IMG/VR virus record: IMGVR_UViG_3300005515_000062
Span: 1 to 22,337 of that record
Reading direction: 5' to 3' (one strand)
Origin: a virus
Length of the DNA stretch: 22,337 bases
Both the position numbers and the translations under genes were made by a program. Positions 10,746-14,181 of the stretch are shown here, piece by piece; positions within the stretch are counted from its first letter, which is position 1; the number at the start of each line of letters is the position of its first letter. The notes beneath the pieces are model-generated. The model was not told the DNA's origin. It did not search any database and saw only the letters and a program-made list of their open reading frames with translations.

Positions 10746-11015
10746 CTACAGCGCAGCTTCGGCAGTTACCGCTTTCGCTTTGCGGATCCGGCGCGGCTTG
10801 CGCAACACGTCCCAGCGGAAATTCGGCACTAGCTCTTCACAGATCACCCGCTTGCCGGTAGCCTCTTCGATGACCGGGCAGTGCTCCGAAGGGAGAGGCC
10901 GCGAGCCGTTGACCCACTGGCTAACCGACTGCGGGGTAACGCCGAGGATTGCGGCCAGAGCTTTCTGACTTCCCACAATCGAGATGGCCTTTTCGAGGCC
11001 GACATTTCGGTCCAT
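10746..11015 (-). CDS. Cro-like / YdaS-type HTH repressor
   Basis: This is an 89-residue DNA-binding protein. Residues 5-45 carry a lambda-type HTH: LEKAISIVGSQKALAAILGVT followed by PQSVSQWVNGSRPLPSEHC, the pattern of YdaS/Cro proteins. The C-terminal tail is basic (LRKPRRIRKAKA). It is the first gene of the leftward operon, 28 nt from the -10 of a promoter whose -35 lies in the 15-bp palindromic operator. In analogy with lambda it would bind the same operator and repress cI. AGGA precedes the ATG. Confidence 0.87.
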   Translation of the reverse strand: MDRNVGLEKAISIVGSQKALAAILGVTPQSVSQWVNGSRPLPSEHCPVIEEATGKRVICEELVPNFRWDVLRKPRRIRKAKAVTAEAAL

Positions 11016-11043
11016 ATCCGGTCCTAAAGCATCACTTGCCTCA

Positions 11044-11072
11044 ATACTAAACTAATGCTTTATCAAAAGCAA
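11044..11072 (-). promoter_or_regulatory. Leftward early promoter for cro (PR-like)
   Basis: On the minus strand TTGCTT (11067-11072), exactly 17 nt, TAGTAT (11044-11049). The -35 lies in the left half of the palindrome at 11067-11081, so a bound repressor would block it. The 5' leader of cro would be short, about 22 nt. Confidence 0.65.
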
Positions 11073-11081
11073 TCATTGCTT
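11067..11081. promoter_or_regulatory. Palindromic repressor operator
   Basis: AAGCAAT-C-ATTGCTT is a perfect odd 15-bp palindrome between the divergent cro and cI genes. Related half-sites occur nearby at 11027-11039 (AAGCATCACTTGC), 11054-11062 (AATGCTTTA) and 11107-11117 (AAGCAATGCTT, overlapping the cI start), and again at 13634-13660. The repeated half-site AAGCAAT is the likely CI/Cro recognition unit. Confidence 0.78.
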
Positions 11082-11105
11082 GCACGCGTTGCGCCCAAGC
11101 ACAAT
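11076..11105 (+). promoter_or_regulatory. cI promoter (PRM-like), leaderless start
   Basis: TTGCTT (11076-11081, right half of the operator), 18-nt spacer, CACAAT (11100-11105). The A of the cI ATG at 11112 is 7 nt past the -10 box, where transcription should begin. Both boxes are weak, as expected of an activator-dependent maintenance promoter. Confidence 0.5.
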
Positions 11106-11111
11106 CAAGCA

Positions 11112-12194
11112 ATGCTTTCCTCCGTCCTAATTCAAGAACTCCTTTCCTCGCCTCCTGCGGATCTCGCTGGCAAAGTCGCCGCGACCATCGGGCGGGGGCT
11201 TGTGCCCGCTAAAGATGTGGCGGAGGCGTGCGGAGTGACTGTCCAGGCCATCAATGGCTGGAAGACGAACGGGCGCGTGGGAAAACAGCACATTAAGACG
11301 CTGGCTCGCCTGACGGGCCTGCCTGTTTCGTGGTGGCTGCCGGGTGATGATTTGGATGACGAGTCCAGCCCTGTTGGCTCGACTCCCTGGCCGTTTGCGT
11401 CTATCGATCGCGAGCGGATCGAAGCCCTTCCGGCTGAACGGCTGAAGCATCTTGAAGGCGTGATGCTTTTCGCCTTGCAGGGCTACTCTGAAGGCACGGC
11501 GACGATCAATGTCCCAGCTGTGTCCGCCACTCCCGCAGCAGGCAGCCGCGGTTCCGTATTCGACATGGACGCGGCCGACGACGTGTTCCCTATGCGAATT
11601 GGTGGAATGCCGCCAGCACCTTGGGAAGGCGGCACAACCACGCACCAGACCGATAAGGCGCCGCCAGTCCGTATTAGCACTCAGGTTGGGGTAATTGCGA
11701 ATGTTGGCCCTGGCGAGCCGCACGCTGCAAACGACAAGTTTGAGAAGGTCCCTGAGCTGGCCGACGTGCGCCTGGCCGCTGGTGATGGAATCGAGAACCA
11801 GACCGAAGAACAGACCGGAATGATTCAGTTCCGTCGCTCGTTCCTGAAGGAAGTCGGCGCTGACGGTGGCAAGGCACGCGTGGTGTATGCCAAGGGCGAC
11901 AGCATGGAGCCGGTGATTCGAGACGGCGCCGCCCTACTTGTGGTGCCGAACGAAAACCTGACGATCCGCGACTTGGCTGCGGGCGGCGTTTACGCCATCA
12001 ACTATGACGGCAAGATGATCGTCAAGACGGTGGCGCGGGACAAGCTGACGCAGCGTTGGGTAGCTCGGTCCTTCAATCCAACCTATGCGGATATCCCACT
12101 TGAGAACGGGCATCCGGTCCGCGTGCTGGGCCAGGTTGTGTGGGCTGGCGCTCGGCTGCGGGATGACGAGGCGGGACAGTGGGTACGCTCCTAG
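11112..12194 (+). CDS. CI-like repressor with S24/LexA autoprotease domain
   Basis: This 360-residue lysogeny repressor is longer than lambda CI (237). An N-terminal HTH lies at about residues 32-55 (PAKDVAEACGVTVQAINGWK), followed by a long Pro/Gly-rich linker (about 80-230). The C-terminal S24 peptidase has Ser264 in GDSMEP and Lys305 in MIVKTV as the catalytic dyad, so RecA-stimulated self-cleavage on DNA damage is expected. An in-frame ATG at 11055 would add 19 residues but would put the operator inside the gene. The start at 11112 fits a leaderless mRNA from the promoter at 11076-11105; no ribosome site precedes either start. The transcript appears to continue into the next three genes. 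Confidence 0.92.
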   Translation: MLSSVLIQELLSSPPADLAGKVAATIGRGLVPAKDVAEACGVTVQAINGWKTNGRVGKQHIKTLARLTGLPVSWWLPGDDLDDESSPVGSTPWPFASIDRERIEALPAERLKHLEGVMLFALQGYSEGTATINVPAVSATPAAGSRGSVFDMDAADDVFPMRIGGMPPAPWEGGTTTHQTDKAPPVRISTQVGVIANVGPGEPHAANDKFEKVPELADVRLAAGDGIENQTEEQTGMIQFRRSFLKEVGADGGKARVVYAKGDSMEPVIRDGAALLVVPNENLTIRDLAAGGVYAINYDGKMIVKTVARDKLTQRWVARSFNPTYADIPLENGHPVRVLGQVVWAGARLRDDEAGQWVRS

Positions 12195-12221
12195 ACCTTT
12201 TTTTATAGGTGAGGTAACCGA

Positions 12222-12653
12222 ATGCGATTTGCCGCTCTAGTTGTTGCGTCTCTTCTGCTAACTGGCTGTGCAACAGCGCCAGGGAAATTGAAGCAAGACG
12301 ACTTCGATTGGTCGGAATCCGTTCTGACTATCTCGCCTGAAAAGACGTTTGCAGGGCTGCAGAACTACGCCCGCATGTGCGGTGGGATTCTGAACCAGGC
12401 TCCTGAGTGGTATCCCACGCAGACAGGCGACGGATCCAAGGTAGATCTGTTCATGCGAGGACTCGCCGGCCAAACGGAGTTTGTCTACGGCGTGATTGAG
12501 TTAAGCCGAACGTCGGATGGAGGCACCGTTGCCAAGACCGGAATTCAAACGGTCTATTCAAAACCTGCCTTCCGTAAGCGTGGATGGTGGATCGAAAAGG
12601 TTCAGACCATGTTTGCCGAGATTGATTCGGGCAAGACGCCTTCGTGCCAATAA
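12222..12653 (+). CDS. Predicted lipoprotein, cI-operon cargo
   Basis: This 143-residue protein has a type II signal peptide: MRFAALVVASLLLTGC, lipobox LTGC with lipidated Cys16. The mature part is unknown; two further cysteines (Cys48 region ARMCGG and the C-terminal SCQ) may pair. The start follows a GTGAGG site and lies 27 nt after cI with no terminator hairpin between them, so co-transcription with the repressor is likely. A lysogen-expressed surface lipoprotein suggests lysogenic conversion or superinfection exclusion, a known class of prophage cargo; that role is inferred here from context only. Confidence 0.82.
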   Translation: MRFAALVVASLLLTGCATAPGKLKQDDFDWSESVLTISPEKTFAGLQNYARMCGGILNQAPEWYPTQTGDGSKVDLFMRGLAGQTEFVYGVIELSRTSDGGTVAKTGIQTVYSKPAFRKRGWWIEKVQTMFAEIDSGKTPSCQ

Positions 12654-12674
12654 CGCTACACCTTGAGGTCAAGC

Positions 12675-13136
12675 ATGCGACGTACAACAGCTTCGCTGGG
12701 CGCCGTCCTGTTACTTACTGGCACCACGGTTTTAGCCCAAGACAAGGTGATGACCCTATCGGCGATTTGCAAGGAGCCGCAAGGTCATTTGATCAGCTAC
12801 CAGAGCAAGGATGGCAATCCGGAGCGGGTGAAGGATGGTTTTAAGAACGCCGCTTGGTTCTTCCAGTGGAGCACAGCCACCCCGGGTGTTGGCCGGGTGG
12901 TCACCCAAGACTCTCAAAGCGCCGGTAGTGGAACCAGGGGCGTCGACGCATCGGTAAGGTTCAGTGACGGCCTGGAGTCTATATCGTTCTTTGTCTTTTA
13001 TGAATCAGGCCTGTGGGTCTACACGCTGTTCCCCTCATCCAAGGTGATGGTGGCTTCACGGCACATGATCAGTTCCCTTCATCAAGGCGGTAGCGGCGCG
13101 GTGTTTAGCGCTAAATGCGACATGGGAATTCAGTAA
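12675..13136 (+). CDS. Predicted secreted/periplasmic protein, cI-operon cargo
   Basis: This 153-residue protein has a classical signal peptide: MRRTTASLGAVLLLTGTTVLA with cleavage expected after Ala21. The mature part has two cysteines (AICKEP and the C-terminal AKCDMG), consistent with one periplasmic disulfide. No family is recognised. The ATG at 12675 is preferred over an in-frame TTG at 12663 because GAGG lies 7 nt upstream. It follows the lipoprotein gene by 21 nt, and both products go to the envelope, so they may work together. Confidence 0.78.
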   Translation: MRRTTASLGAVLLLTGTTVLAQDKVMTLSAICKEPQGHLISYQSKDGNPERVKDGFKNAAWFFQWSTATPGVGRVVTQDSQSAGSGTRGVDASVRFSDGLESISFFVFYESGLWVYTLFPSSKVMVASRHMISSLHQGGSGAVFSAKCDMGIQ

Positions 13137-13173
13137 TCTTCCCGTTGCGCTATGCGGACGCTAGAATCGCCGC

Positions 13174-13575
13174 ATGATCGCAATCATCTTCTTTTGGTTT
13201 TTGTTCGCCATCGCCGTGGGCATGATCGCCTCCAGCCGCGGGCGTAGCGGCTTTGGATGGTTCATTCTTGCGTGCCTCATCAGCCCGCTTTTGGCTGGAA
13301 TCATCTTGCTGGTCAGCGCTAACCTGCGTAGCCAGGCGCCGCGTCCCACGCCCTTCACGCACGTCAAGTGTCCGGACTGCAGAGAACTGATCCTCAAGGA
13401 CGCTCGCGTGTGCCGACACTGTGGCTGCAAGCTGGTTGTGGCGGAAGCCTCCCTACCCCTTGACCGAGATCCATCCCTCACTTCTGAACTGAAGGATCTG
13501 GGCGCGTGGAGGGTTGTCTACGTCGCAGGCGTGATTGTCATCATCGCCGCCGTCATCTGGATCCAGGTCTACTAA
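13174..13575 (+). CDS. Membrane protein with zinc-ribbon
   Basis: This is a 133-residue protein. Two N-terminal membrane segments lie at about 2-20 (IAIIFFWFLFAIAVGMI) and 28-50 (GWFILACLISPLLAGIILLVSA). A cytoplasmic zinc ribbon follows at about 68-88 (CPDCRELILKDARVCRHCG, four cysteines in two CxxC). A C-terminal helix ends the chain (VVYVAGVIVIIAAVIWIQV). The ATG has no ribosome site, but TAGAAT ends 6 nt upstream, so it may be expressed from a leaderless transcript as well as by read-through from cI. The combination of two helices, zinc ribbon and helix occurs in small bacterial membrane proteins of unknown role. An intrinsic terminator follows 20 nt after the stop. Confidence 0.8.
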   Translation: MIAIIFFWFLFAIAVGMIASSRGRSGFGWFILACLISPLLAGIILLVSANLRSQAPRPTPFTHVKCPDCRELILKDARVCRHCGCKLVVAEASLPLDRDPSLTSELKDLGAWRVVYVAGVIVIIAAVIWIQVY

Positions 13576-13594
13576 GCCCCCTCACCTAGCTACA

Positions 13595-13616
13595 GCCGCC
13601 TTCGGGCGGCTTTTTT
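13595..13616 (+). terminator. Intrinsic terminator of the cI operon
   Basis: GCCGCC, tetraloop TTCG, GGCGGC, then six T: a perfect 6-bp stem with the stable UUCG loop. It closes the rightward cI-cargo transcript before the next promoter region. Confidence 0.93.
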
Positions 13617-13621
13617 GCGCC

Positions 13622-13670
13622 CTGACTTAAATCATTGCTTGCTTTTAAGATAAAGCAATGGTTTAATTAA
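13622..13670 (+). promoter_or_regulatory. OL-like operator/promoter of the rightward early operon
   Basis: Two half-sites in inverted orientation, ATTGCTT (13634-13640) and AAGCAAT (13653-13659), match the halves of the 11067-11081 operator. AATCATTGCTTGC at 13630-13642 is shared exactly with 11071-11083. A possible promoter is CTGACT (13622-13627), 18 nt, TAAGAT (13646-13651), whose -10 would lie between the half-sites; boxes are only moderate. The AT-rich context and position after a terminator fit a CI-controlled PL. Confidence 0.6.
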
Positions 13671-14001
13671 TCCAACGCAGCAAACGACCCGCAGAACAGC
13701 CTAGGCGAGAGCCAGCCCAGTAACGAGTCTGCTGCGAAGTACCGCAGGACCGCTCTTTAACAACCAGCTAAGCGATAGAACAGGCTCTATGTCCCTCTTG
13801 GGACGCTCGGCCCCGGACGCACTCTCCACCGGAAGCGAAGTTTGCTCAAGACGAGAGACGAGAAGACAGTTTTCACGACCTGGCCCGTAAAGCCCGGCCT
13901 CGAAAGAGTGATTGAAAAACTGGCGGCGACGGCTGTCTTCTCCAGATTCATCTGAATGTGCCTTCTACGAGGGCACAGCCACATGAACAAGGGAGATTGA
14001 C
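13671..14001 (+). promoter_or_regulatory. Long structured leader with boxA antitermination site
   Basis: This 330-base leader holds no convincing gene. It has CGCTCTTTAACAA (13751-13763), a match to the rrn/lambda boxA bound by NusB-S10. Twelve nt later comes a hairpin ATAGA-ACAGGC-TCTAT (13775-13790, boxB position), directly followed by GTCCC-TCTT-GGGAC (13791-13804). Upstream, CGCAGCA (13676-13682) can pair with TGCTGCG (13730-13736). A further hairpin, TGTGCC/GGCACA, lies near 13957-13977. This looks like a nut-type site for processive antitermination of the operon. Confidence 0.6.
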
Positions 14002-14181
14002 ATGACCAAGCAAGGAATGATCGACAACGCCCAGCACATCGCCGGAATCATCGTTGGCCGCGCGTTTCGCTTCCTGGGACTGCGCTACGCGAAAGAAGAT
14101 CGCGGAACTCGTTGGTTCAGCACGGTAGCTGCAAACTTGGCTGCTGACGGCGAGCCGATGCAGTGGATGCCGTACCGCTAA
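14002..14181 (+). CDS. Small hypothetical protein, first gene of rightward operon
   Basis: This 59-residue protein has an excellent ribosome site (GGGAG, 6 nt before ATG). It contains QHIAGIIVGRAFRFLGLRYAK and a C-terminal GEPMQWMPYR. It is mildly basic but lacks the N-terminal Arg-rich motif of lambda N-type antiterminators, so despite its leading place after a boxA it cannot be called N. No family is recognised. Confidence 0.72.
   Translation: MTKQGMIDNAQHIAGIIVGRAFRFLGLRYAKEDRGTRWFSTVAANLAADGEPMQWMPYR

Follow-up and report, generated by a model that had tools for sequence, protein, structure and literature searches.

What purpose is served by genes for exported proteins that lie directly behind the repressor gene of a temperate phage? 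The question is raised by an IMG/VR virus record of 22,337 bases, called the window here. The phage is temperate and of Achromobacter type, with Cro-like and CII-like proteins encoded divergently to its cI gene; its close relatives are Achromobacter prophages (among them L014 of A. mucicolens, whose ZN is 90% identical) and viral contigs. A preliminary description of the window had placed three genes, all of them envelope-directed, between cI and the terminator of its operon, and both points hold: LP1, SEC and ZN all lie on the + strand between the end of cI and position 13594 (Table 1), LP1 with a lipobox, SEC with a cleavable signal peptide and ZN with three hydrophobic segments.

Table 1. 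Features of the repressor-proximal region, in window coordinates
Feature	Position	Strand	Remarks
cI-type repressor (HTH and Peptidase_S24), operon head	11055..12194	+	PF00717, E 1.1e-14; phrog_4 (CI-like repressor), E 1.4e-37
Operator word AATCATTGCTTGC, cI start region	11071..11083		Same 13-mer at right flank
LP1, 143-aa lipoprotein, the swapped gene of the slot	12222..12653	+	Lipobox LTGC/ATAP, Ala at +2
SEC, 153-aa secreted periplasmic protein, predicted small beta-barrel	12675..13136	+	Start ATG 12675
TAGAAT, -10-like box, 12 nt ahead of the ZN ATG	13162..13167	+	Kept in 10/10 loci
ZN, three hydrophobic segments and a zinc ribbon	13174..13575	+	Conserved neighbour
Intrinsic terminator closing the cI-to-ZN stretch	13594..13617	+	7-bp stem with 6 GC, then T-run
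Second CI operator word, start of rightward early promoter region	13630..13642		Identical to 11071-11083

Purifying selection marks all three as real genes, with dN/dS values of 0.13-0.25 for LP1, 0.02-0.05 for mature SEC and about 0.12 for ZN against its closest relatives; an Rfam search of the region returned no RNA family. For SEC, the TTG start at 12663 proposed by the ORF finder was rejected, because the ATG at 12675 has GAGG upstream and is kept as a start in the relative L002. The signal peptide is cleavable at TVLA/QDK (here and below the slash marks the cut), so that the mature protein starts at window position 12738. In the LP1 lipobox, LLLTGC/ATAP, the residue at +2 is Ala, and a residue other than Asp at +2 is the sorting signal of outer-membrane lipoproteins; by this rule LP1 is predicted to be located in the outer membrane.

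LP1 and SEC follow their preceding genes at distances of 27 and 21 nt, and no terminator was found ahead of 13594. In a terminator scan, whose sites are no more frequent than in shuffles, 13594-13611 was the sole terminator-like site on the + strand within 10900-14100; we assign it as a terminator on the basis of its position and its presence after ZN in relatives. The longest word common to the cI-start flank and the stretch behind this terminator is 13 nt long, AATCATTGCTTGC in the window. Relatives with other repressor N-domains have other pairs of words at the same two places (AACTATGGTTGA in L006, AGCCATCTAAGAT, inverted, in L008, and ATTAGGCGTCGCCTAAT in L010). The operator words common to both flanks measure 12-17 nt within an immunity type and 0-10 nt across types, and the operator pair is absent only from L007. 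With one operator at the cI start and another on its far side, the block has the place of rexAB in lambda, which lies between cI and the second operator there. Judging from this anatomy, transcription of the block in a lysogen should start at the cI promoter: with this promoter on and the flanking early promoters off, cI, LP1 and SEC would be made together. Position, orientation, the lack of an intervening terminator and the flanking CI operators support co-transcription of cI, LP1 and SEC, and for these genes agree with the preliminary assignment to the repressor transcript.

Homology searches and structure prediction had been proposed as checks. LP1 and SEC have no match in Pfam (for LP1, no family at E <= 1), PHROGs, NCBIfam or PADLOC, as expected from their earlier description as unrecognised. 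LP1, SEC and ZN together hit 0 families of PADLOC defence models and have no match among 50,697 phage records; a sequence search against solved structures found nothing. A search of 399 further genomes of the order gave 0 LP1 matches, which is uninformative since it had no positive control. The structure model of LP1, built from 4 sequences, has a helix-grip fold (pLDDT 77), and its match to the BamC N-domain (Z 8.7, 3.0 A over 100 residues) is middling and tied with relatives of KA1 and Bet v 1. SEC is modelled as a small beta-barrel (pLDDT 72), its best fold match being likewise middling (Z 9.5, 3.3 A over 102 residues). Neither model points to a mechanism, and neither was used in assigning function.

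What does inform on function is the set of genes found at this place in relatives. The window and L014 are 85% identical up to the cI stop at 12194 and 90% identical again from 12738, the first position of mature SEC; between these points L014 has LP2 and a different signal peptide in place of LP1 and the SEC signal peptide. The mature SEC domain is orthologous in this prophage, with 97% identity. SEC travels with LP1 or LP2 and is a separable neighbour of LP1. LP1 occurs also in L002 and L003; LP2 in L011, L012 and L095 besides L014; and LP3 in L005, L008, L100, L101, L102 and L104. L007 has LP4 plus LP3, and no lipoprotein lies in the slot of L006 and L010. Nine cI-linked relatives were found via ZN, a search blind to lipoproteins, and seven of these nine have a lipoprotein directly after cI, from four families; the two without one count against the reading favoured below. 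A joint LP1/LP2 family was considered and rejected: full-length hhalign gave E 8e-5, the mature proteins without signal peptides only E 0.14, and since the signal is lost with the signal peptides we treat the two as unrelated. Comparisons of LP1 with LP3 and of LP2 with LP3 found no similarity. Across the loci compared, the stretch that follows cI acts as a swap slot.

Traces of the exchange remain. In six loci the lipoprotein gene is followed immediately by what is left of a second cI 3' end: L005 (4880-4960), L007 (3949-3990), L011 (3612-3659), L012 (3573-3611), L101 (6378-6419) and L104 (6377-6430). The repressor of L101 is a different S24 protein, yet the older cI tail remnant is present. 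These remnants are scars of exchanges in which blocks of repressor plus lipoprotein were joined on in front of an older cI tail. A search by sequence alone also placed distant LP3 relatives directly behind unrelated S24 repressors on the chromosomes L120 and L121. Other LP3 relatives were seen in T7-like phages of Pseudomonas and Limnohabitans (L067:1581-1976 and L068:4905-5282); one of these is annotated 'outer membrane lipoprotein' and adjoins an integrase-like gene. The Bordetella avium IFTN phages were rejected as relatives, since they have only the cI C-terminal domain in common and their slot is occupied differently; that they reportedly lack superinfection immunity is a coincidence and not evidence here.

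The lipoprotein is exchanged independently of immunity specificity, since homoimmune phages differ in it and heteroimmune ones share it. The cI N-domain is 98-100% identical in the window, L002, L005 and L014, which carry LP1, LP1, LP3 and LP2, respectively, and the heteroimmune L003 (18% identity in the cI N-domain) has LP1.

Besides lipoproteins, the slot takes up other cargo. DUF1828 gene pairs are found in L011, L012 and L101, and the slot DUF1828 proteins match the PADLOC candidate PDC-M24B in L011 (E 1e-9) and L012 (E 3e-6); the slot of L104 has an extra, unassigned 364-aa protein. Swapping of the slot for unrelated lipoproteins and candidate anti-phage genes suggests that the dormant phage uses LP1 to protect its host cell from other phages. 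The preliminary description had left the choice between exclusion and lysogenic conversion, and this repeated replacement speaks for exclusion or defence. As further observations on the cargo, a two-gene unit encoding a protein of about 170 aa and a DUF1828 protein occupies L012:3639-4884, L101:6519-7762 and L063:1959-3199, the L063 copy adjoining a chromosomal SEC homolog, and a DUF7946/DUF7947 protein is encoded at L007:4037-4888, between the lipoproteins and ZN.

Genes of the LP1 and LP2 families were found in one other place besides the repressor slot, behind DUF1833 in tail operons. For LP1 this is a distant homolog (24% identity, E 7e-18) in G172, where the tail genes of a prophage run tape measure, small tail protein, DUF1833, lipoprotein, NlpC-like, J; this homolog is adjacent to the receptor-binding tail gene, and the LP1 of the window is not. 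The syntenic tail operon of six window relatives has a J gene product 57-60% identical to that of G172 and no lipoprotein there. In L098 the same three genes up to DUF1833 are followed by an inserted reading frame and then by an LP2-family gene, and the contig ends before J. Lipobox-like ORFs are rare in the tail operons of slot-bearing phages. The presence of two unrelated slot families at one tail position suggests a shared purpose tied to tail-mediated entry. We tentatively propose, as a possibility that we would not put at even chances, that two slots are filled in turn by unrelated families of outer-membrane lipoproteins, a repressor-proximal one for lysogenic use and a tail-operon one near J for lytic use, with the same purpose of exclusion at tail-mediated entry. 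We rejected a match between lipoprotein type and the phage's own J: L002 (LP1) and L014 (LP2) have J C-termini that are 91% identical, which speaks against a simple receptor block fitted to a phage's own J.

Both repressor-linked exclusion (RexAB, CarolAnn 43/44) and exclusion lipoproteins (Ltp, Llp) are known kinds of system. Defence by genes co-transcribed with the repressor is established for CarolAnn 43/44 (PMC6426606) and for rexAB of P. putida P1 (PMC12894663). LP1 and SEC resemble RexAB-type systems in gene position, being accessory genes directly downstream of cI and between two operators; in RexAB-type systems such genes are transcribed with the repressor and made in lysogeny. RexA is a DNA-binding protein and RexB a membrane channel, and they act inside the cell, whereas LP1 and SEC carry export signals; LP1 and SEC do not match RexA or RexB, nor are they the combination of a cytosolic RexA with a multi-pass RexB.

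Among exclusion lipoproteins, Ltp of Streptococcus thermophilus phage TP-J34 is expressed from the lysogeny module of the prophage and blocks DNA injection (PMC3952083). LP1, by lipobox and position, is likewise a lipoprotein in a lysogeny module; Ltp, however, is a Gram-positive protein anchored in the cytoplasmic membrane, LP1 has a predicted helix-grip fold and a predicted outer-membrane location, and no Pfam match (E <= 1) links LP1 to the Ltp family. The tape measure is similar among LP2 phages (86-95% versus 68-75%) and not among LP1 phages (68%), only a lead at n=6; the similarity among LP2 phages would fit a block of ejection like that by Ltp. The outer-membrane lipoproteins Llp (T5) and Cor (T1 and phi80) exclude related phages, llp adjoining pb5 in T5 (PMC9586334), and the mEpimmI phages encode exclusion lipoproteins (Lpp), tested by expression, in their structural cluster (PMC11893012). 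The LP1- and LP2-family genes of tail operons resemble these in lying in a structural or tail region, and LP1 resembles Llp and Cor in its non-Asp +2 signal of outer-membrane type. Unlike Llp, Cor and the mEpimmI Lpp, the LP1 of the window lies behind the repressor and the lipoprotein class does not follow J; we found no sequence similarity of LP1 to any of them. SEC might be a soluble periplasmic exclusion protein, as is Glo, encoded by Vibrio cholerae phage K139 (cited in PMC3952083); we found no relation between the two, and SEC has chromosomal homologs.

From these comparisons we think it probable that LP1 is a lysogeny-expressed outer-membrane lipoprotein for superinfection exclusion, perhaps aided by SEC. 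The stretch after cI would then be a repressor-linked accessory slot in the rexAB position, with LP1 as its present occupant. Lipidated LP1 would reach the outer membrane and block the entry of other phages, at adsorption or at DNA ejection, and periplasmic SEC would assist or stabilise it. As the phage community changes, the LP gene would give way to genes for unrelated lipoproteins that do the same work. ZN is, on this reading, a separate conserved unit.

A possible objection, and the main rival, is lysogenic conversion: LP1 and SEC, like Bor of lambda, would alter the envelope for the benefit of the host (serum, stress, surface) and leave phages unaffected. Three envelope-targeted proteins fit such a role, and chromosomal relatives make modification of the host envelope possible: SEC homologs occur on the chromosomes of three genomes, and LP2 resembles a chromosomal lipoprotein present in 65 of 268 family genomes that, where examined (L107, L108, L113, L117), adjoins msbA-like and/or RNase G genes. 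We nevertheless consider conversion unlikely, because a gene of benefit to the host would not need the tail operon in which LP1- and LP2-family genes occur, because candidate defence genes share the slot, and because fast replacement by unrelated lipoproteins better fits an arms race. The tail-operon copies, together with the LP3 relatives carried by T7-like phages, might instead suggest a lytic role, in which LP1 and SEC shield new virions from receptors on debris or help release and came to lie behind cI by an accident of recombination. To this we give little credence: a lipoprotein repeatedly follows the repressor in the temperate relatives examined, including unrelated S24 repressors, and would there be made in lysogeny.

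It could also be argued that ZN, the most constant neighbour of the slot, is, rather than LP1, the working part of a three-part exclusion system with LP1 and SEC. ZN has a zinc ribbon, CPDC-x10-CRHC (Zn_ribbon_3 at E 0.001, below the Pfam cutoff), and its Pfam matches at E <= 1 do not include Imm_superinfect (T4 Imm-like); it does match PHROGs of unknown function (phrog_8436, E 9e-13), so that the label 'unrecognised' does not hold for it as it does for LP1 and SEC. TAGA(A/C)T stands 12-13 nt ahead of the ZN ATG in all ten loci, though most of the upstream sequence is unrelated between cargo types, and TAGAAT is probably the promoter of a separate, leaderless ZN unit. Terminator-like hairpins lie between cargo and ZN in L007, L011 and L012. 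For these two reasons we read ZN as a neighbouring unit, probably outside the exclusion unit, and its place on the repressor transcript is not secure. With LP1 present without ZN in L003, and ZN homologs in 32 of 268 family genomes in mixed, unrelated chromosomal contexts, a three-part system seems very improbable. The earlier picture of a three-gene envelope cassette thus errs in its details: the unit that is swapped is LP1, with SEC separable from it and ZN a conserved neighbour.

New here are the LP families, the two-slot pattern, and the finding that Achromobacter-type phages have a predicted outer-membrane lipoprotein where lambda has rexAB; in the open-access literature we found no paper describing this. 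With exclusion by LP1 as the favoured reading, an anonymous lipoprotein becomes a testable hypothesis, and the natural allele swaps of LP1, LP2 and LP3 in otherwise similar homoimmune phages come close to ready-made isogenic comparisons for exclusion by envelope lipoproteins. If this reading is true, Achromobacter and related prophages would yield new exclusion proteins from their repressor-proximal slots, with a bearing on phage resistance in opportunists considered for phage therapy; if the two-slot reading is true as well, the repressor-proximal slot would be a general place to search for exclusion proteins in Burkholderiales prophages.

Two minor features lie to the right of the second operator. 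About 110 bases past it, window positions 13751-13762 read CGCTCTTTAACA, which we take to be identical to the boxA antitermination consensus; its core recurs at about this position in L010, L011 and L012. A further lipoprotein of 145 aa (LLAACDDD, with Asp at +2) is encoded on this side at L002:6707-7144 and L006:5776-6213 and is 96-99% conserved.
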